NCBI GenBank assembly: GCA_015066045.1
Contig: SVPD01000022.1
Location: 1 to 37,712, forward strand
Length of the DNA: 37,712 bases
Direction of reading: 5' to 3'
Source: Oscillospiraceae bacterium
GTDB lineage: Bacteria > Bacillota > Clostridia > Oscillospirales > Acutalibacteraceae
The translations under genes and the position numbers were made by a program. This document shows positions 4,087-21,511 of this stretch, one piece after another. Within the stretch, counting starts at the first letter, position 1. The number at the start of each line of letters is the position of its first letter. Under the pieces are notes generated by a model. The model was not told the DNA's origin, did no database searches, and worked only from the letters and a program-made list of their open reading frames with translations.

Positions 4087-5121
4087 ATGAAAAAGAAAAA
4101 CATTATAAATCTCATAAAATATTACTCCGAAAAAAATGATGCTGGTTTTAGAACTGAAGCATATGAAATAGCAAGTGATTTTGATAAATCTGGTGATTAT
4201 CAGTTATCAGAATATATTATGGCTTTAATGTCGAATGCGAACACCTTTGTTCCTCAGATGAATGAGGAAAATCTCAATTTTCTTCAAAAAGTCCATTTAA
4301 ATCAAGATCCACTACCACTGCCAGAGGCAATCAAAGAAGATATAGTTGGCGTTATTAATGCCATCAGTCATAATGCAGGAATAAATAAATTTCTTTTTGA
4401 AGGTGCCCCCGGCACAGGAAAGACCGAAACTGTAAAACAAGTTGCTAGAATTTTGGATAGAGAATTATTTATCGTAGATTTTGATTCTGTTGTGGATAGT
4501 AAGTTGGGTCAAACTTCAAAGAATATCGCTGCCTTATTTAATGAGATTGCAAAACTGCCATACCCTGAAAGAGCTATCGTTCTTTTTGATGAAATCGATG
4601 CCATTGCGCTTGATAGACTAAACTCTAATGACTTGCGGGAAATGGGGAGAGCTACATCATCGGTATTAAAAGGTCTAGATAATTTGAACGAAACGGTTGT
4701 TTTAATAGCAACAACCAACCTTTATGCTTCTTTTGACAAAGCTCTGTCGCGAAGATTTGATGCAATCATTAACTTCAATAGATATTCACAGGATGACTTA
4801 GTCGAGGTTGCTGAAACGGTAGTAAATGTATTGCTCACAAAGTTTAAATTTGCAAGTAAGAATACAAGGTTGCTTAAAAAAATCTTGAAATTGATGGAGC
4901 CTATACCTTATCCTGGAGAACTAAAAAATCTTTTAAAGACTTGCCTTGCTTTTAGTAGTCCAAATGATGAATTCGATTATTTAAGAAAACTATATGCTTC
5001 TGTTGACAAAAAGATAGGAAATGATCTAAAAGCAATGCAGGATTATGGTTTTACGGTGAGAGAAATTGAAATTCTCACAGGAGTATCTAAAAGCCAAGTT
5101 TCACGAGAATTAAAGGAGTAA
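4087..5121 (+). CDS. ietA: AAA+ ATPase, IetA-like component of an IetAS-type system
   Basis: A 344-aa cytosolic ATPase. Walker A GAPGTGKT at 106-113, Walker B IVLFDE ending at Asp168-Glu169, sensor 1 Asn211 (ATTN), and arginine-finger region SRRFD at 221-225 define an AAA+ core resembling ClpX/FtsH-type modules. An N-terminal helical ~85 residues precede it. The last ~25 residues (FTVREIEILTGVSKSQVSRE) look like a helix-turn-helix, suggesting DNA binding or autoregulation. The start has GGAGG 7 nt upstream. The gene is four bases from a subtilisin-like protease gene. An AAA ATPase followed by an S8 protease is the IetAS pair, first reported as a plasmid stability system in Agrobacterium and later as anti-phage. 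The symbol is given by architecture only. Confidence 0.85.
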   Translation: MKKKNIINLIKYYSEKNDAGFRTEAYEIASDFDKSGDYQLSEYIMALMSNANTFVPQMNEENLNFLQKVHLNQDPLPLPEAIKEDIVGVINAISHNAGINKFLFEGAPGTGKTETVKQVARILDRELFIVDFDSVVDSKLGQTSKNIAALFNEIAKLPYPERAIVLFDEIDAIALDRLNSNDLREMGRATSSVLKGLDNLNETVVLIATTNLYASFDKALSRRFDAIINFNRYSQDDLVEVAETVVNVLLTKFKFASKNTRLLKKILKLMEPIPYPGELKNLLKTCLAFSSPNDEFDYLRKLYASVDKKIGNDLKAMQDYGFTVREIEILTGVSKSQVSRELKE

Positions 5122-5125
5122 ATGT

Positions 5126-7360
5126 ATGAACGATTTACTTAATTTAAAAGGTACATTTCAACAAGAAAATAGGAATTCAAGACCAGGACCCCCAAGTTTG
5201 CCGGCAAACACAAAAGTGTCTGTACAACACATGAAAAAACTTTTTGATGAACTTTTAGTACTAAAAGATTATTGGCAAAAAGAAAATGTAATTACCGGCG
5301 CTTTAATTAGCGTTCAATATATAGATGTTATTGCTAAGAGTCGCAGAATTTCTGGTTTTTTATCTAAAGGTAGTGTCACTGCTAATAGTTCGGTTGTCGG
5401 TGCAAAATTTGCTGATGAAATAACTCCGGATAACATCATATCTAGAAAGCACATTATTACACATTATGTTTCATTAGCAATTCTTGACGAGTCAATCAGA
5501 AGATTGTCATCTTCTATAGAAGTTGTTGAAAAGACTTTTAATGGTGTTATCTCATCTGAAACTGTAGAAAAAATCAATAAAAAGAAAATCAACTTTAAGC
5601 CAAATGAAATCGCACCAACTACATTTCTAAATATTGTTGTGGATTGTCATTATGTTGAAAAATTCTTCGTAAGTCAAGAAGTTGAAGAGTTTAAAACAGA
5701 TACAATTATAACCATTTATAAAACAGATAATACTAAAGCGGTATTAGAAAAAGTCGGTATTAATGTCTTGCCTAGCAGAATATATCACGAAACCACCTTG
5801 CTTCTCACACCGGACCAGTTAGCAATTCTCCAAAGTAGGGCATCATATTTGATTGCTATGGCAACTACTGACATATCCAAACTTTCAAAAGAAATTTTGT
5901 TAGGGCCTTCAGAAGATTTGGTTACCATTCCATCCCCGTCAAATGAACCTACTATTGGTGTAATTGACACTATGTTTTGGGAAGATGTATATTTCAGCGA
6001 ATGGGTAGAATTTAAAAAAAGAATTCCTGACGATATTGAACTTGAACAAAAAGATTATTTTCATGGAACATCTGTGTCTTCAATTATAGTAGATGGACCA
6101 ACTATAAATCCCGAACTTGATGACGGTTGCGGAAGATTTAAAGTTAGACACTTTGGAGTTGCAACAAGTGGACATTTTAATTCATTCACTATTTTACGCA
6201 CGATAGATGAAATCATAAAAGAAAACAGGGATATAAAAGTTTGGAATTTATCTTTAGGTTCCGAAAAAGAAATCCACCCCAACTTTATTTCCCCTGAAGC
6301 GGCAATCCTGGATAAAATTCAGAGCGAAAACGATGTGATATTTATCATAGCAGGAACCAACAAACGTGCGAATGATGGTGAGGAAAGATATATCGGTTCT
6401 CCTGCGGATTCAATAAATTCCTTAGTAGTAAATTCAGTTGACTATAATAATAAACCTGTCTCGTATTCAAGAAAAGGTCCTGTTTTATCGTTTTTCAACA
6501 AACCTGATGTGAGTTACTACGGAGGAGACAGAAGCAATCCAATTAAAGTCTGTTGCGAAACAGGAGGACAAATCGTAGCTGGTACCTCTTTCGCTGCACC
6601 ATGGATTGCAAGGAAAATGTCTTACTTAATAGATGTACTCGGCTTAAGTAGAGAAGTAGCCAAGGCATTGATTGTTGATTCTGCGGCTAGTTGGAAAAAG
6701 CAAGACGCACCCTCAAAGTATATTGGCTACGGTGTTGTGCCAATCAGGATCGAAGAGATAATAAAATCTAAGGATGATGAAATTAGATTCGTTATTTCCG
6801 GTACTTCTGAAAAATACAATACTTATAACTATAGTTTGCCTGTGCCGATAAGCAAAGATATGTATCCATATATTGCTAAGGCAACTTTATGCTACTTCCC
6901 TGTTTGTTCAAGAAATCAAGGTGTAGACTATACCAATACTGAACTTGATCTGCATTTTGGAAGGCTAAATGGTAGAACCGTAAAAACCATAAACGATAAC
7001 AAACAAGGTGAAGATGGAAGTTACATATACGAAGGCAACGCTCGTACGTTTTTCAGAAAATGGGACAATGTCAAACACATTGTTGAATATCCTAAAAAAG
7101 GTTCAAGACCCAAAAAGGTGTATGAAACTAAAATGTGGGGCTTGAGTATAAAAACGACTGAACGTCTTGAAGAAAAATACGGAGAAGGATTAAATTTTGG
7201 TGTTGTAATAACGCTTAAAGAAATCAACGGTGTTAATCGAATTGATGAGTTTATAAAACAATGTTTCCTCAAAAACTGGCTTGTTACTTCCGTTAATGTT
7301 GAAAATAGAATCGATATTTACAATATTGCGGAGGAAGAAGTTGAATTTGACAACGAATAA
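5126..7360 (+). CDS. ietS: Subtilisin-like serine protease, IetS-like component
   Basis: A 744-aa protein without signal peptide, so intracellular. Residues 1-270 are a helical N-terminal domain. The S8 domain has a full catalytic set: Asp281 (IGVIDTMF), His313 (FHGTSVSS), oxyanion Asn412 (IIAGTN) and Ser488 (GTSFAAP). A ~230-residue C-terminal region after the protease is mostly beta and unrecognised. It is translationally close to the ATPase gene (AAAGGAG before ATG). In IetAS the protease is the likely effector and the ATPase the controller, as known for the toxin-antitoxin behaviour of the pair. All catalytic residues are present, so activity is expected. Its target is unknown. Confidence 0.88.
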   Translation: MNDLLNLKGTFQQENRNSRPGPPSLPANTKVSVQHMKKLFDELLVLKDYWQKENVITGALISVQYIDVIAKSRRISGFLSKGSVTANSSVVGAKFADEITPDNIISRKHIITHYVSLAILDESIRRLSSSIEVVEKTFNGVISSETVEKINKKKINFKPNEIAPTTFLNIVVDCHYVEKFFVSQEVEEFKTDTIITIYKTDNTKAVLEKVGINVLPSRIYHETTLLLTPDQLAILQSRASYLIAMATTDISKLSKEILLGPSEDLVTIPSPSNEPTIGVIDTMFWEDVYFSEWVEFKKRIPDDIELEQKDYFHGTSVSSIIVDGPTINPELDDGCGRFKVRHFGVATSGHFNSFTILRTIDEIIKENRDIKVWNLSLGSEKEIHPNFISPEAAILDKIQSENDVIFIIAGTNKRANDGEERYIGSPADSINSLVVNSVDYNNKPVSYSRKGPVLSFFNKPDVSYYGGDRSNPIKVCCETGGQIVAGTSFAAPWIARKMSYLIDVLGLSREVAKALIVDSAASWKKQDAPSKYIGYGVVPIRIEEIIKSKDDEIRFVISGTSEKYNTYNYSLPVPISKDMYPYIAKATLCYFPVCSRNQGVDYTNTELDLHFGRLNGRTVKTINDNKQGEDGSYIYEGNARTFFRKWDNVKHIVEYPKKGSRPKKVYETKMWGLSIKTTERLEEKYGEGLNFGVVITLKEINGVNRIDEFIKQCFLKNWLVTSVNVENRIDIYNIAEEEVEFDNE

Positions 7361-8144: not shown

Positions 8145-8495
8145 ATGATAAAAACAGAAAAATCCATTGAAACATTAACTAAAGAAATAGCTACATTAGA
8201 CAGCACCGAACTGCATGATTTATTTATGTTTTATTACAGAATAAATCATTATCATTTCAATATTACTTCATTTGATAATTTTAATAAATTCCTAGTATCG
8301 TTTGACAAAAATCCTTTTCGCCGTTGTGATGAAAAAGAATTCAGAAAACAAATGACAGATAATCTAATAGCATATACAGACGATCATATGAGCTTGATTA
8401 CTGCTATTGTACTTATCAAAAGAAAGTTTACCGTTACCGAAATTATAGAAAACTACTATGCTAACGTTAATGCTTTCGATAACAATTTATTTTAA
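8145..8495 (+). CDS. Small hypothetical backbone protein (shared by elements A and B)
   Basis: A 116-aa protein, aromatic and Asn-rich, with no membrane segment. Ribosome site AGAAG about 8 nt before ATG. The C-terminal 38 codons are identical to the partial gene at the window start, so this gene belongs to the core of the element family. It seems distantly related to the 155-aa product of 10126-10593: both have Leu-x-Ser near the start, a Phe/Tyr-rich helix ending Asn-His, an AsnPhe stretch, and a final Tyr-Tyr-Ala-Asn. The upstream regions share a 24-bp box. A terminator follows. Function unknown. Confidence 0.75.
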   Translation: MIKTEKSIETLTKEIATLDSTELHDLFMFYYRINHYHFNITSFDNFNKFLVSFDKNPFRRCDEKEFRKQMTDNLIAYTDDHMSLITAIVLIKRKFTVTEIIENYYANVNAFDNNLF

Positions 8496-8550
8496 TTCTA
8501 TGAACCCGTCTTGATAGCACAAAATATCAAGAATAGTTTTGTAAATGAAT

Positions 8551-8589
8551 AAAAGAGCTGATGATTTTATTAGATCGTCAGCTCTTTTT
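8551..8589 (+). terminator. Terminator after the 116-aa gene
   Basis: AAAAGAGCTGA and TCAGCTCTTTTT are complementary arms around a ~16-nt interior that can itself pair in part. The A-rich left side makes it potentially bidirectional, serving the convergent minus-strand operon ending at 8658. Confidence 0.85.
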
Positions 8590-14330: not shown

Positions 14331-14436
14331 AGTATTAAAAGAAAGTTTGCAATTGTTTGTATCAAAAGCGCTTACAAACAGATTAAAACACGACATAATA
14401 TAAGTATCAAAAGAGAGTAAAGTTAGTTTTAATACT
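14331..14436. other. Putative res/inversion site of element B serine recombinase
   Basis: Direct repeats AGTATTAAAAG (14331-14341), TGTATCAAAAG (14359-14369) and AGTATCAAAAG (14403-14413), with an inverted TTTTAATACT (14427-14436). The same ~110 bp sits upstream of the element A recombinase in the other orientation. Arrangement and position are typical of a resolvase site. Confidence 0.6.
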
Positions 14437-14452
14437 GAAAGGGGCACGAATT

Positions 14453-15157
14453 ATGATTTATGGTTATTGCAGAGTAAGTACAAAGCATCAGAGAATAACA
14501 AGACAAGTTACCAACATTACAGAACTTTATCCCGAAGCTACTATCATTAAAGAATTCTACACCGGAACAACTCAAAACCGTCCATTATGGGACAAGCTAG
14601 TGAAACAACTAGCCACAGGTGACACTATAGTTTTTGATAGTGTATCAAGAATGTCCCGTAATGCTGAGGAAGGCTTTAAGGATTATAAAACTCTTTATGA
14701 GTCAGGGATTAATCTTATATTCATCAATGAGCCACTTATAAATTCTTCCATCTTTGATTCAACTAAAAACAATTTATTAGAAATCTCTGTTCAGACCGGT
14801 AACTCGGCAGTTGATGATTACTTCAAAGGTAATATCACATTAATAAACAACCTTCTAATGTCACTCGCAGAAGAACAGATAAAATCAGCTTTTCTTCAAT
14901 CTGAAAAAGAAGTTACTGATCTTCATACCAGAATCAGTCAGGGTATGAGAGAAAGCAAAAAGAAAGGTAATAAGATAGGTCTTGAAAAAGGTACAACCTT
15001 GATTACAGATAAATCTGTTAAATGTAAAGAGATAATAAAAAAGCATGCCCAGGATTTTGGAGGCACACTTAGTGATAAGGAGGTTATGATATTATGTAAG
15101 GTTTCCAGGAATTCTTATTATAAGTATAAAAGAGAACTGAAAGTTCAGAACAATTAA
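14453..15157 (+). CDS. Serine recombinase (resolvase/invertase type), element B copy
   Basis: A 234-aa paralogue of 1275-1979 with identical catalytic motifs (Ser9 in RVSTKHQ; FDSVSRMSRN) and a C-terminal HTH. GGGGC lies about 8 nt upstream of ATG. It is transcribed away from the repeat array and followed after 13 bp by a 57-aa gene with a perfect AAGGAGG site, so an operon with 15171 and 15375 is likely. Relative to the integrase it points the opposite way from the element A copy. Either the segment was inverted or the two elements were assembled differently. Confidence 0.93.
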   Translation: MIYGYCRVSTKHQRITRQVTNITELYPEATIIKEFYTGTTQNRPLWDKLVKQLATGDTIVFDSVSRMSRNAEEGFKDYKTLYESGINLIFINEPLINSSIFDSTKNNLLEISVQTGNSAVDDYFKGNITLINNLLMSLAEEQIKSAFLQSEKEVTDLHTRISQGMRESKKKGNKIGLEKGTTLITDKSVKCKEIIKKHAQDFGGTLSDKEVMILCKVSRNSYYKYKRELKVQNN

Positions 15158-15737: not shown

Positions 15738-15766
15738 TTGCAAACACTATAGATTTCTAATATAAT
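15738..15766 (+). promoter_or_regulatory. Promoter of the structured RNA
   Basis: TTGCAA at 15738-15743, 17-bp spacer, TATAAT at 15761-15766. Seven bases later (15773) is the first base of the outer stem of the RNA described next, so the transcript would start exactly at the stem. Confidence 0.8.
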
Positions 15767-15772
15767 ATAAAT

Positions 15773-15968
15773 GCCAAACTGTAAGATACTCAAAACTAAA
15801 GAACATTAATACAAGGGGGTAGTGTACCCTTTTTAAATTCATACCATGAATTTGATAAAAATGTGAATTCCTTCGGTATGAATACAGTAATGTTCTTTGT
15901 ATCTACATAGTTTGGCGACTATCGGAGTTTGCATTTTTTGTGCGACTGCTTCGGTGGTCGCACTTTTT
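15773..15968 (+). ncRNA. Novel structured RNA or riboswitch-like leader, ~196 nt
   Basis: Outer stem GCCAAACU (15773-15780) with AGUUUGGC (15909-15916), continued by GUA/UAC and GAUAC/GUAUC (15785-15789 with 15899-15903). Second stem AAAGAACAUUA (15798-15808) with UAAUGUUCUUU (15888-15898), perfect over 11 bp. It closes a junction with hairpin AAGGGGGUA-GUG-UACCCUUUUU (15813-15833) and stem AUUCAUACC/GGUAUGAAU (15837-15845 with 15875-15883), topped by a GAAUU/AAUUC hairpin. A terminator ends it. It starts at a strong promoter and precedes the surface-protein gene, so it is either a stand-alone small RNA or a riboswitch controlling that gene. It matched no riboswitch, T-box or retron pattern I know. 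Confidence 0.7.
15940..15968 (+). terminator. Strong terminator between structured RNA and surface-protein gene
   Basis: GUGCGAC (15940-15946) pairs with GUCGCAC (15957-15963) around a UGCUUCGGUG loop and is followed by five U. The ribosome site of the next gene begins 20 bp later. GGCGAC at 15914-15919 could compete for the GUCGC arm, a weak hint of an alternative fold. Confidence 0.88.
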
Positions 15969-16000
15969 ATTATTAAACCTTTTAAGGTGGTTGATTTATC

Positions 16001-19000
16001 ATGAAACGGATTCTTTCAATACTACTTACCAGTATATTAATTATCTCAATGTTACCCTTTAACGCATTAAGGATAAGTGCAACAGCAACAACAGGGTTTG
16101 CAGGAGGAAGTGGAACAGAAAATGATCCATATCTTATTGAAACAAAATATCATTTGAATAATATTCGTAACTATCCAAGTGCCCATTTTAAAATGGTTGC
16201 TGATATAGAATTTAAAAACTACGACTTTTCTGAGTATGGAGATTTCTATAATCATGGTTATGGATTCAATCCTATCGGTGGTACTTCCGGTTTTACCGGA
16301 GTATTTGATGGCAACAACCATGTTATAAAAAATTTACATATAGAATCTCCAGGGTTACGTGTAGGTCTTTTTAATGAAAATCGAGGAACAATCAGAAATG
16401 TCGGTATAGTTAATAGTTTTATATCCGCTTCATATCCGGAAGAAGCTTCAACTTTATCTATGTATGCAGGAAGTATTGCAGCAAAAAACTATGGAAGGAT
16501 AGAAAATTGTTACAATACAGGTTCAGTGTCAGTTGTATATTCAAACAATCATCTCTATACATACGTTGGTGGTATCGCAGGAGATAATCGTGGCACAATA
16601 TCAGACTGTAATAACCAGGGTTCTGTATCTGATAAGAATAAAAATGGTGAGGCGTCTTTTTTGGGCGGAATCGCGGGAATGAACAAAAGCAGTATAGTTA
16701 AAAACTGCTATAATTCCGGTTCTGTATCAGCCTCAAATTCATCTGACGACGCTTTTGCTGGTGGTATAACAGGAAATAACGATAACGGTACTATAGAAAA
16801 CTGTCATAACATAGGTTCTGTATCTGCTTTAGCGTCATCTTCAAACGAATTTTCTGGTGGAATTGCAGCAACAAACAATAGTAATATAAAAAATTCCTAT
16901 AATGCGGGAACTGTGACGGTTTCAAATTCATCTGCAGGTAAAGTCAATGTTGGTGGAATTGTAGCAACTAACGACGGTATGATAAACAACTGTTATAATA
17001 CAGTGGATTTGTCTGCTTCAGGTTTAGGTAAGTATGTCTATGTGGGCGGAATTGCATCAATTAACAACAGCATTATAAAAAGCTGCTATAACTTAGGCTG
17101 TTTGACAGCTTTGGTATCTGATCCATCTTCTGTAAATTCACTTTACTCTTATTCTGCTTGTGCTTATACAGGTGGCATTGCAGGAGATAATAATGGCAGT
17201 ATAGAGACTTGTTACAACATAGGTAATTTGGCAGCATCAAGCTGGAGTATGTTTTCTAATTTTGATATCTATGCTTACGCAGGAGGTATAGTAGGACACA
17301 ATGGTTCAGGCACAATAGAAAACTGTTATAATACGGATTCAGTGTCGTCAGTTACAGGTCCGGGGACAGAGCCAGGTGTAATCTATGCATCCCTCGCACG
17401 CAATGCATATTCTTATTCTGGTGGAGTTGCAGGATATAACTTAGGTGGTACAATAAACACCTCCTATAGTATAGGAGATGTTTCGGCAGAGGCGCTTGCA
17501 ACTTATGATAAATATACCTATAAAGGTGGTATAACAGGGTTTGGCGGCACATTAAATAATTGTTACTCCGATAAAACATCAGATGAACTTAAGCTATCCA
17601 ACACATACACTGGCTTTGATTTTGAATCTGTTTGGACAATGGATGGAAACGAATGCTATCCCTATGCCGAATTTAAAAATGTAAATATTATATTGGATCA
17701 TTTCTATAATGGTTCTTGCGATACAACTTGCAATTGTGGATTCGTTAGAGCGAGTTCCTCCGACCATAAATATATACATATTTACGACACAATTAATCAT
17801 TTTGATAAGTGTACAATTTGTGAGAATGTAATAAATGCAAAACCTCATCAGTTTGTCAATGCTTGTGATGCAAGCTGTGATTGCGGATATGAAAGAACTA
17901 TCACACACAGCTATGACAATGCGTGTGATACAAATTGTAACGAATGCGGTTTAGAACGTGAAGTTCCCGACCATGTTTATGATAACTCTTGTGATACCGA
18001 TTGTAATTTATGCAATGAATTACGAACAATCACACACTCCTACAAGAATGCCTGTGACACCACATGTGATATTTGCGGACAAATTCGCACAGTGCCTGAT
18101 CATAACTATACACTGAACAGCAATCACACTTGTGACATTTGTAAATACAGCCGAACTCCCGGCAAGCCTATTGTTGAAAGTAAAACAAATAACAGTGTTA
18201 CCTTAGTTCCGTTAGACGGTTTTGAATATTCTAAAAATGGTCTAAACTGGCAAGCAAACAATGTATTCACAAACCTTTCAGCTGATACTACTTACACCTT
18301 CTATCAAAGAGTAAAAGCATCATCGAATGCGTTGGCAAGTGAAATTAGTGAAGGTCTAGCTATTACATTTAAGTCGGCACAGACAGCACCATATGCACCA
18401 ATTATTTCCAGCTTTACTGACACAATGGTAACACTTGTTGCTATTACAAATGGTGAATATTCCACAGACGGCGCAAATTGGCAGACAAGCAATGTGTTCA
18501 CAGGTCTTTCCTCGGGAACAAAATACACTTTCTATCAGCGCTACGCTGAAACCGATACCCACGAAGCAAGTAACATAAGCACCGGTACAAGCGTTACAAC
18601 AGACAAATCGAAACAAACACTTATACCTAATACGCCGACTGTTCAAAGTTTCACTGCAAGTAGTATTACACTAACTCCTATTGATGGTTGTGAGTACTCA
18701 AAGAACGGTACTACATGGCAAACCAATAATACTTTTTATAATTTATCCTGTGGTACAGAATATACCTTTTATCAGAGATACAAGGAAACAGCAACAACGT
18801 ATGCAGGAAAAAGCAGTTCTGCTTTGAAAGCACAAACCGATAAGGGTACTCAAACCAAACCGTCTGCACCAACACTTTCAAGCAAAACATATAACAGCGT
18901 TACACTTACCGCTATCAGTGGATATGAATATTCACGTGACGGTATAAATTGGCAGAACAGCAATGTGTTTACAGGTCTGACTGCAGAAACTAATTATTTG

Positions 19001-20503
19001 TTCTATCGGCGCAGGGCAGAGACAAATACACATTATGCTAGTGAATCAAGTGCTTCTATTACAGTAAAAACAGATGATGCTCCAATATGTGTTATAGATC
19101 CTACCTTGCATATTTATGATAATGATTGTGACAAGACCTGTAACCTCTGCGGTTCTATGAGAAATGTGCAAGAGCATAAATACTCAAATACTTGTGATGC
19201 TACATGTAATGAGTGTCAAGAAGTTCGTGTGGTTGGACCTCATAAGTACGACAATGCGTGTGATGAATCCTGCAACACTTGTGGAGCAACCCGTTCCATT
19301 GCCCACGATTATGCCGAGGCCACCTGCAGAGCACCTAAGACATGTAAGATTTGCGGTACAACTAGTGGAAGCAAATTGAGTCATAACACCGACGCAGGTA
19401 CCATAACCCAAAACGCTACTTGTACTGCCACCGGCACAATGATCTATAAGTGTACATTGTGCAATGAGGTTATCAAAACCGATGCAATCGCAATGCTCAC
19501 TCATGATTATGATTCTGGCAAGCTAACCAAGAGTGCGACCTGTAAGGAAGCAGGAATTAAAACCTATACCTGTAGTGTTTGCAAGGGAACTAAAACTGAA
19601 ACAATTGCAAAGAGTACAACACATTCCTACTCAAATAATTGTGACAGTTCTTGTAATGTTTGCGGTGCAACCCGTTCCATAACCCATAACTATGCGACGG
19701 CTACCTGTACCAAATCAAAAACCTGTAAGGTGTGTGGTGCGACGAGTGGCAAAGCGTTAGGTCATACCTATACTAATTCTTGCGATAAGAGTTGTAATCG
19801 TTGTAAAGCAACACGCTCTATTAAGCACACCTATACAAATGCTTGTGACACTACTTGTAATATATGTAAAGCTACTCGCAGCATAAAACACTCATACAAA
19901 ACTACCACAACCAAAGCAACCCTTAAAAAGAACGGTAGTGTGGTTAAAAAATGTACAGTCTGCGGAATTGTTGCCAGCAAGACAACCATTAAGTATGTTA
20001 AATCTATCAAACTTTCTGCTACAAGTTATACTTACAACGGAAAAGTAAAAACACCTACCGTAACAGTAAAGGATTCTTCCGGTAAAACACTTAAGAAAAA
20101 TACTGATTATACAGTTTCCTATGCAAAAGGCAGAAAGAAAGTTGGCACTTACAAGGTTACCATTAAATTCAAGGGTAATTATAGTGGAACCAAGACTCTT
20201 ACCTTTAAGATCAATCCTGCAAAAACAAATGTATCTAAGCTCACTGCAGGTAAAAAGAGTATCACCGTAAATATTACAAAAAAATCCACACAGGTTACCG
20301 GATATCAGATTCAGTATTCAACCTCTAAAGAGTTTACGAACGCAAAAACCAAGACAATAAAAAGTTGCAAAACTACTAAGTACACTTTAAAAGGTTTGAG
20401 TGCAAAAAAGACATACTATGTAAGAGTAAGAACTTACAAGACTGTTGGAGATATTAAATACTATTCTGGCTGGTCTACATATAAGCATGTAAAAACCAAA
20501 TAA
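16001..20503 (+). CDS. Large secreted surface protein with GLUG-type, Cys-rich and Fn3-like repeats
   Basis: A 1500-aa exported protein. Signal peptide in residues 1-30 (MKRILSILLTSILIISMLPF). Residues ~35-560 hold about ten to eleven GLUG-like repeats (GGIAGDNRGTISDC and similar), a beta-solenoid unit of surface adhesins. Then eleven copies of a CDxxCNxCG-type motif, often followed by Arg and His-x-Tyr, are split into two groups around four ~90-aa repeats carrying YSxxGxxWQxxNxF and TFYQR. The C-terminus has an MBG-like/Ig-like module (~1330-1405) and a fibronectin type III-like domain ending WSTYKHVKTK. No LPXTG or SLH anchor is seen. AAGGTGG lies 11 nt before ATG. Likely adhesin or host-interaction cargo of element B. 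Confidence 0.85.
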   Translation: MKRILSILLTSILIISMLPFNALRISATATTGFAGGSGTENDPYLIETKYHLNNIRNYPSAHFKMVADIEFKNYDFSEYGDFYNHGYGFNPIGGTSGFTGVFDGNNHVIKNLHIESPGLRVGLFNENRGTIRNVGIVNSFISASYPEEASTLSMYAGSIAAKNYGRIENCYNTGSVSVVYSNNHLYTYVGGIAGDNRGTISDCNNQGSVSDKNKNGEASFLGGIAGMNKSSIVKNCYNSGSVSASNSSDDAFAGGITGNNDNGTIENCHNIGSVSALASSSNEFSGGIAATNNSNIKNSYNAGTVTVSNSSAGKVNVGGIVATNDGMINNCYNTVDLSASGLGKYVYVGGIASINNSIIKSCYNLGCLTALVSDPSSVNSLYSYSACAYTGGIAGDNNGSIETCYNIGNLAASSWSMFSNFDIYAYAGGIVGHNGSGTIENCYNTDSVSSVTGPGTEPGVIYASLARNAYSYSGGVAGYNLGGTINTSYSIGDVSAEALATYDKYTYKGGITGFGGTLNNCYSDKTSDELKLSNTYTGFDFESVWTMDGNECYPYAEFKNVNIILDHFYNGSCDTTCNCGFVRASSSDHKYIHIYDTINHFDKCTICENVINAKPHQFVNACDASCDCGYERTITHSYDNACDTNCNECGLEREVPDHVYDNSCDTDCNLCNELRTITHSYKNACDTTCDICGQIRTVPDHNYTLNSNHTCDICKYSRTPGKPIVESKTNNSVTLVPLDGFEYSKNGLNWQANNVFTNLSADTTYTFYQRVKASSNALASEISEGLAITFKSAQTAPYAPIISSFTDTMVTLVAITNGEYSTDGANWQTSNVFTGLSSGTKYTFYQRYAETDTHEASNISTGTSVTTDKSKQTLIPNTPTVQSFTASSITLTPIDGCEYSKNGTTWQTNNTFYNLSCGTEYTFYQRYKETATTYAGKSSSALKAQTDKGTQTKPSAPTLSSKTYNSVTLTAISGYEYSRDGINWQNSNVFTGLTAETNYLFYRRRAETNTHYASESSASITVKTDDAPICVIDPTLHIYDNDCDKTCNLCGSMRNVQEHKYSNTCDATCNECQEVRVVGPHKYDNACDESCNTCGATRSIAHDYAEATCRAPKTCKICGTTSGSKLSHNTDAGTITQNATCTATGTMIYKCTLCNEVIKTDAIAMLTHDYDSGKLTKSATCKEAGIKTYTCSVCKGTKTETIAKSTTHSYSNNCDSSCNVCGATRSITHNYATATCTKSKTCKVCGATSGKALGHTYTNSCDKSCNRCKATRSIKHTYTNACDTTCNICKATRSIKHSYKTTTTKATLKKNGSVVKKCTVCGIVASKTTIKYVKSIKLSATSYTYNGKVKTPTVTVKDSSGKTLKKNTDYTVSYAKGRKKVGTYKVTIKFKGNYSGTKTLTFKINPAKTNVSKLTAGKKSITVNITKKSTQVTGYQIQYSTSKEFTNAKTKTIKSCKTTKYTLKGLSAKKTYYVRVRTYKTVGDIKYYSGWSTYKHVKTK

Positions 20504-20572: not shown

Positions 20573-21511
20573 TTATTTTGGCAAAGAAATACGTTTCCTA
20601 CCACTAAACTTATCAAGTACATTAATTTCATCCACCTGTTTAGCTACGTCGCTTACCAGAAGATTGATATAATTCTGTGTGATATCCAAGCTTGAATGTC
20701 CCAGCAGACGAGACAGAGAGACAACATTACCGCCATTCAGTATCCACTGTTTTGCGAACGTATGTCTGTATCTGTGTATCCCGGTAGTCTCTACACCTCG
20801 TTTCTTGTTATACCAATATAGCTTGTTATAACAGGTACTCCTAGCCAGCTGCTGACCGTAGACATTACAGAACAGATAGTCATTATCTGACTTATGATGT
20901 CTGTATTTAAGATATTCAGCCAAGATATTAGTCATAGTCTGATTAAGTGGTACTATCAAAGGCTTTCTGTTCTTTGTGACATTCACATACACAACCCTGT
21001 TATCAAAGTCAATATCTTTTATTTTGACATTGATGAGACTTCTTTCTCTCACAGCCGTCGAAAACAGAAAGTTAGTTATCACCCAACACTGATACTCGTT
21101 AAAAGAGCATTTCTTGATATCAGGCCTCTTGAGTAGTATCTTGAGCTCACTGTCATTATACGTCTCTATGTTAGTTTTATCGACCTTTATGGCTCTCATC
21201 TTATACCTGGGTATATATCCCTCGTCCATCAGAAAGTGCATTGTGGTGATATAATCTCTCAAATAAGAGTTAATACTGACGTCGTTATTAAGAGTAGCTT
21301 TCAGATGAAGAACATATCTCTTATAAGCATCTTCATCAAATTCTTCTATCGGTGTATCCGGGTCAAAGAACTTATAGAACTGAGTGTAACTCTGCCTGTA
21401 ATGATTTATAGTTCCCTCTCTTAAATTCCTCTGCCGGCAGTATTCAAGATACTTCTCACAGCCCTCCTGAAAGGTTAATGTTTTGGTTGCTGTCATCTTC
21501 AGTTTCTGCAT
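20573..21511 (-). CDS. Tyrosine recombinase (integrase), element B
   Basis: A 312-aa integrase, almost identical to the element A copy at 2630-3571. Catalytic residues Arg155, His246, Arg249, His272 and Tyr281 are all present (HRYRHTF, LLGHSSLD, NYINL). The start is the ATG at 21511 with GGGGG upstream; a longer in-frame ATG at 21532 would overlap that site. It lies 33 bp left of the terminator-like hairpin and about 115 bp from the host-gene stop, the usual place for an integrase that targets the 3' end of a gene. The middle of the gene (about 20701-20940) is ~99% identical to copy A while the flanks are about 90%. Confidence 0.96.
   Translation of the reverse strand: MQKLKMTATKTLTFQEGCEKYLEYCRQRNLREGTINHYRQSYTQFYKFFDPDTPIEEFDEDAYKRYVLHLKATLNNDVSINSYLRDYITTMHFLMDEGYIPRYKMRAIKVDKTNIETYNDSELKILLKRPDIKKCSFNEYQCWVITNFLFSTAVRERSLINVKIKDIDFDNRVVYVNVTKNRKPLIVPLNQTMTNILAEYLKYRHHKSDNDYLFCNVYGQQLARSTCYNKLYWYNKKRGVETTGIHRYRHTFAKQWILNGGNVVSLSRLLGHSSLDITQNYINLLVSDVAKQVDEINVLDKFSGRKRISLPK

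Follow-up and report, generated by a model that had tools for sequence, protein, structure and literature searches.

Copies of a predicted leader RNA with competing linker pairings precede diverse genes in Clostridia

In transcription-terminating riboswitches a conserved body lies in the 5′ leader and is combined with an antiterminator and a terminator that exclude each other. A chain of alternative pairings between successive segments is found in the trp-type, ribosome-mediated attenuators, and the T-box leaders are likewise long and contain both an antiterminator and a terminator. The RNA described here, encoded at 15773–15968 on the forward strand of an Oscillospiraceae contig of 37,712 nucleotides (the whole stretch that was analysed, hereafter the window; contig C29 of a 2.24 Mb genome), works, as far as sequence can tell, like a riboswitch or attenuator, and is a candidate for either; membership among the riboswitches would need a ligand. 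In contrast to terminating riboswitches, the family of this RNA possesses a third helix, a pseudoknot with a distal hairpin that competes for the antiterminator strand, and it matches no Rfam class and precedes unrelated genes. Unlike trp-type attenuators it has no evident leader peptide: upstream open frames preceded by a Shine–Dalgarno sequence occur in 45 of 155 copies, a share of 29% where shuffled sequences give 33%, and none is conserved, so that a leader-peptide attenuator was rejected. It is set apart from T-box leaders in that the window RNA matches none of 4227 Rfam families, which presumably include the T-box models, and in that no aminoacyl-tRNA synthetase or amino-acid pathway family is present among the 25 listed of the 52 downstream protein families.

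The first-pass annotation of the window proposed a strongly folded RNA of about 196 nt, and this was borne out, since the minimum free energy of 15773–15968 is −71.6 kcal/mol, compared with −37.9 ± 3.96 in 200 shuffles (z −8.51, none as low). The proposed promoter, TTGCAA-17-TATAAT, is present at 15738–15766, and the first base of the outer stem, at which transcription was said to start, is the seventh after the −10 hexamer. Promoter-like sites in the surrounding 3 kb are at chance level (13 found, 12.9 expected), with TTGCAA-17-TATAAT the top score among them; the window promoter is convincing because relatives hold its position relative to base 1 of the stem. All features run on the forward strand. 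The outer stem P1 (15773–15789 with 15899–15916) is formed in the minimum-energy fold by 10 and 6 pairs with small interruptions and is supported by covariation, and the second stem P2 (15798–15808 with 15888–15898) consists of 11 uninterrupted pairs. The junction carries two further stems, as had been claimed, namely the small hairpin P3 (15813–15833; a GGGTA/TACCC core followed by T5, at 15817–15834, seen in fold and alignment) and the hairpin P4 (15837–15883). The linker GACTATCGGAGTTTGCATTTTTT (15917–15939) leads to the predicted intrinsic terminator GTGCGACTGC-TTCG-GTGGTCGCAC-TTTTT (15940–15968), which is indeed a hairpin at 15940–15963 with five T residues; the 3 kb has 4 terminator-like sites, both strands counted, where 1.0 was expected. 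A candidate ribosome-binding site, AAGGTGG (15984–15990), and a gene of 1500 codons (16001–20503) follow, the latter encoding a protein with GLUG motifs and a fibronectin type III domain that is secreted judging by its start.

The linker of the window RNA could enter two other helices. The P4 loop and 3′ strand AAAAATGTGAATTCC (15857–15871) can form 15 bp with 15924–15938, that is a pseudoknot, and 15917–15928 can pair with 15948–15959, extended by 15929–15934 with 15940–15945, that is an antiterminator. In the minimum-energy fold of the window RNA the terminator is absent and 15917–15934 is paired to the 5′ strand, loop and 3′ side of the terminator; for the linker-plus-terminator segment the antiterminator fold was computed at −23.1 kcal/mol and the terminator alone at −16.5.

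The window RNA is one copy of a large and apparently uncatalogued RNA family. Within the genus, blast matched 14 of 34 genomes, counting that of the window. At nine of the 18 other places the match is limited to a 59-base stretch at the 3′ end, and one place (L020) proved not to be a copy; the loci, when read, contain complete RNAs with the plan of the window RNA. The covariance model R1 was built from 15 sequences of the 19 genus places, the window's own included and L020 and three cut or divergent loci (L013, L014, L015) omitted. At E 0.01 it had matches in 28 of the 34 genomes of the genus, as many as 22 in a single one, and it also matched 102 of 300 genomes of the family at E 0.001 and 112 of 394 of the order at E 1e-6. 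The second model R2, made from 45 copies of class II (defined below), gave 8 copies in the genome from which the window comes, the window RNA included, and matched 87 of 391 genomes of the class under the strict filter of E 1e-7. Weak matches were lost in the larger searches because the filters there were stricter. In a phylum-wide draw of 398 genomes, a few of them from the same family, order or class, only the window's own genome matched at E 1e-6, and the model is therefore not firing at random. An initial loose pattern scan of genome contigs had given 118 stretches, chance-like in appearance, and 25 of these, compared with R1 as a small negative control, produced no match at E up to 1.

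The claim that no known class matches was upheld, as Rfam gave no match for either the window RNA or those of its relatives that were scanned. Nothing in the window exceeded a gathering threshold, the best sub-threshold match near the RNA being MicF (E 0.25; 23.5 bits against a gathering score of 79), and in 51 relative loci only tRNAs were matched. A literature search found no description of this RNA in the accessible parts of the sources, PMC8040213 and PMC11109978 among them, and an earlier description in print is still possible. PMC8040213 reports 3161 candidate structured RNAs of human microbiomes, 508 of which lie within 25 bp upstream of genes; its accessible text describes neither such a switch nor such a family, and it is possible that the window RNA is an unnamed entry among these candidates. 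Blast against phage and plasmid records gave no matches. One exact pattern was found in three IMG/VR contigs filed as viral (L231, L232, L233), which have equal model scores; the L231 copy precedes a protein with a zinc-ribbon-like start.

For comparison 155 copies were collected from the best-scoring matches listed, which is not a random draw, and were divided by R1 score into 82 of class I (81 matches and L231; 95–200 bits, 187–223 nt), to which the window RNA belongs, and 73 of class II (about 30–91 bits). Among the latter 65 are 143–183 nt long and a few have class I length. Class II derives from 97 matches, from which were dropped 15 already placed in class I, L232 and L233 with the same score as L231, L300 with its 3′ end cut, and five weak matches on the strand opposite to counted copies. 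The copies share a plan. P1 is followed by an internal loop, which in most cases has its longer side 5′, and by the stem P2, which varies; many class I copies (by eye) then have the hairpin P3. Next is P4, with AAAA located in the loop or the 3′ strand, and after the 3′ strand of P1 a linker of some 22 nt leads to the terminator hairpin and its T-rich tail, seen in 155/155 copies with a caller that seeks such tails. Thirty class II matches examined singly have the same plan. The best-scoring promoter placement puts the end of the −10 hexamer exactly 6 nt upstream of the first P1 base in 134 of 153 copies, with a spacer of 17 in 122 and a −35 element starting with TTG in 133. At least 9 of the 12 promoter bases are matched in 92/153 copies, compared with 3.6% of shuffled upstream sequences. 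The covarying pairs on which the first-pass annotation had made the structure depend are abundant in relatives: in P1 99.8% of cells are paired and 7 of 10 pairs changed on both sides (82 sequences). Folding gave no clean relation between P1 and P2 lengths that would account for the distal P4 reaching the linker. The P3 core of the window and of class I relatives resembles a short early terminator or pause site, that is a hairpin followed by T5.

Both alternative pairings of the linker, with P4 and with the terminator, are conserved and co-vary, as indicated by partner swaps and by pair counts in alignments. For the swaps 151 of the 155 copies could be used, four having failed the P1 or linker filter; the pseudoknot swap was confined to the 149 with a P4 motif, 130 of them unique. 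The antiterminator duplex is stronger with its own partner than with swapped ones (−11.8 and −8.4 kcal/mol, 109 unique copies), and so is the pseudoknot duplex (−15.8 and −11.7, 130 unique copies); in either case none of 5000 permutations was as low, a count that overstates independence because the copies are related. The pair counts rest on MAFFT alignments not fitted to structure, with the pairs themselves written from one member. In class I (82 sequences) the pseudoknot is paired in 94.2% of cells, compared with 35–64% when slid, and 16 of 500 shuffles equalled its two-sided changes and further pair types; the antiterminator is paired in 89.7% (at most 46% slid), with two-sided change in 9 of 12 pairs (0/500 shuffles) and a second pair that is formed in only 12 of 82. 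In class II (45 sequences) the values are 91.0% (at most 61% slid) for the pseudoknot, whose further pair types were equalled by 135/500 shuffles, and 82.5% (at most 55% slid) for the antiterminator, whose two-sided changes were equalled by 74/500 and further pair types by 68/500. In each of the four tests the observed paired cells and covariation score were higher than in any of the 500 shuffles or six slid versions; counts of two-sided changes and of further pair types were above every shuffle only for the antiterminator of class I. Compensation of the whole motif is seen in L292, where the linker CAAATGAAG faces the terminator TTCATTTG, and in L291 (CAATAGGGG with CTCTTATTG).

Since the pseudoknot and antiterminator share linker bases, and the antiterminator takes bases of the terminator, the P4 hairpin, pseudoknot, antiterminator and terminator are stepwise mutually exclusive. 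Covariation of a conserved structure, as in riboswitches, is therefore accompanied by mutually exclusive helices of the expression-platform kind, at the level of sequence. Before any loop cost is charged to the pseudoknot, its duplex is more stable than the hairpin P4 in 137 of 149 copies (on average −16.0 against −7.9). The computed minimum of the linker-plus-terminator segment is of antiterminator type in 84/151 copies only, thus the balance between antiterminator and terminator varies between copies; in a stricter fold with four bases of the terminator 5′ strand kept unpaired, the antiterminator lies below the terminator in 18/151.

The RNA is probably, and with good confidence on our part, the 5′ leader of the downstream gene, acting as a transcription attenuator. 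The first-pass proposal of a riboswitch or attenuator leader of no known class gains support from the gene position (next gene on the same strand in 132/136) and from the co-varying antiterminator. Transcription would begin at P1 base 1, and four pairings would be possible in turn, between the P4 strands, between the P4 3′ strand and the linker, between the linker and the terminator loop and 3′ side, and within the terminator itself. If P4 is kept closed, for instance by a ligand, a protein or an RNA, the free linker would form the antiterminator and polymerase would read through to the gene. Capture of the P4 3′ strand by the linker would instead allow the terminator to form, and only a leader of about 150–200 nt would be made. 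The copies compared indicate that the alternative helices are possible, co-varying and base-sharing, and that a putative module of promoter, switch and terminator precedes diverse genes; from these we infer the formation of the helices in the cell, the default state, the direction of the switch and the action of a signal on P4 or on the P1/P2 body. Tandem arrays of 2–4 copies exist (L211, L212, L213, L214, L215, L216, L217, L304 and, in the window's own genome, L340 on contig C33 and L341 on C40), some of the class II copies among them, and a promoter-like sequence precedes each tandem copy read, which is unusual for an attenuator and counts against this reading; so does the result that within the arrays the antiterminator gains nothing from pairing with its own partner.

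Within the attenuator reading, control may be exerted by an RNA-binding protein or a trans-acting RNA and not by a metabolite, with terminated leaders possibly acting on sister copies, a sub-case that we take seriously without favouring it. It agrees with the downstream genes, as no common pathway is named among the 25 listed of the 52 families, unlike in most metabolite riboswitches, and with the tandem arrays, in which the linker pairs with the sister's terminator as well as with its own (−11.5 own, −12.1 cross) and with the sister's P4 about 2 kcal/mol less well. Against it, no candidate factor was identified, and global signals such as second messengers likewise govern unrelated genes. The scan of downstream proteins covered 124 of 126, all but the 1500-aa one of the window and the 1239-aa one of L154; BspA-type leucine-rich repeats were found in 18, dockerin in 7, DUF6809 and SHOCT in 4 each and collagen in 3. 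By a crude rule a signal-like or membrane segment is present in 83/126. Genes for contact with the environment thus stand behind the leader: they encode secreted proteins of the leucine-rich-repeat, dockerin and collagen-like kinds and numerous small membrane proteins.

More tentatively, and as a conjecture we hold to be rather unlikely in its full extent, the family might constitute class-wide portable promoter-plus-switch leaders that answer one global signal by three-way strand exchange and gate surface and accessory genes gained by horizontal transfer, with terminated leaders perhaps acting in trans on sisters through partly interchangeable P4, linker and terminator. If the attenuator reading is right, this would be a large orphan regulatory RNA family with no Rfam match, present in 87/391 sampled genomes of the class, and a defined switch for which the effects of compensatory mutations can be predicted. 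What signal, one would then ask, governs such unrelated genes?

The attenuator reading has to be weighed against a free-standing small RNA family, in which the terminator is a plain 3′ end and the neighbouring gene is incidental or has its own promoter. Such a family would agree with the promoter-like sequence at a fixed place (134/153), the T-tailed hairpin found by the tail-seeking caller in every copy and the promoter carried by each tandem copy. A free small RNA would hold no fixed relation to a downstream gene, however, and the position data disagree with this. In 132 of 155 copies the gene called next shares the strand of the RNA and in 4 it does not (two of these being open frames of 61 aa or less); a further 4 have no called gene in the stretch examined, and in the remaining 15 another copy follows within 500 nt; hence 132/136 for copies with no following copy and a gene in reach. 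Upstream genes are less strand-biased (87 same, 58 opposite). Among the 132 same-strand genes 126 start within 160 nt of the RNA end and 6 further off. The start codon of these 126 lies 14–32 nt past the end in 74, a peak that may be sharpened by a caller preferring starts behind a Shine–Dalgarno sequence, 33–160 nt in 49, and less than 14 nt or overlapping in 3. At 14–32 nt there is no room for a separate promoter, so that transcripts there must cross the terminator; in the 49 copies at 33–160 nt, or further off, a separate gene promoter is possible. The location is that of a riboswitch in a 5′ leader, and a co-varying antiterminator would have no evident purpose in a free RNA. A 5′ leader is the best reading of these sequences, and a free-standing family is improbable; the element-encoded small RNA that had been offered as an alternative is disfavoured as the main function, and terminated leaders could still accumulate as small RNA. 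By eye, L007, L008, L009 and L012 have another inverted repeat, for example TTTTGTGG..CCACAAAA, between the terminator and a more distant start codon.

A DNA-level recombination site, attC-like or an integrase target with an incidental fold, would suit the recombinase genes around the window RNA and the enrichment of copies just downstream of tRNA genes, and is very improbable in view of the promoter fixed relative to base 1, the terminator with its T-rich tail and the strand bias toward the downstream gene. A retron msr-msd was rejected, as no reverse transcriptase was found among 10 window proteins scanned; the window RNA is flanked by genes for a resolvase, a 114-aa protein with no Pfam match and the GLUG protein.

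Of the 142 copies with 600 nt of upstream sequence, 20 (e.g., L144, L145, L149, L234, L296, L299) have a tRNA gene within that distance, on the strand of the RNA in 19 of the 20 loci, with 35 tRNAs in 810 kb overall. A downstream tRNA was found for one copy, a comparison that is unfair as the downstream side is mostly filled by the gene. This suggests that leader–gene units often sit at tRNA insertion sites. In the window, inverted copies of a serine recombinase (1275–2068 and 14364–15157, 81%), direct tyrosine-integrase stretches (2655–2954 and 20595–20894, 93%) and a direct repeat of 190 nt (1–190 and 8378–8567, 96%) are present, and by these repeated modules the RNA looks to be within a composite region that is apparently mobile. 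At 4087–7360 an AAA ATPase gene adjoins a subtilase gene, a pair that might be a defence module.
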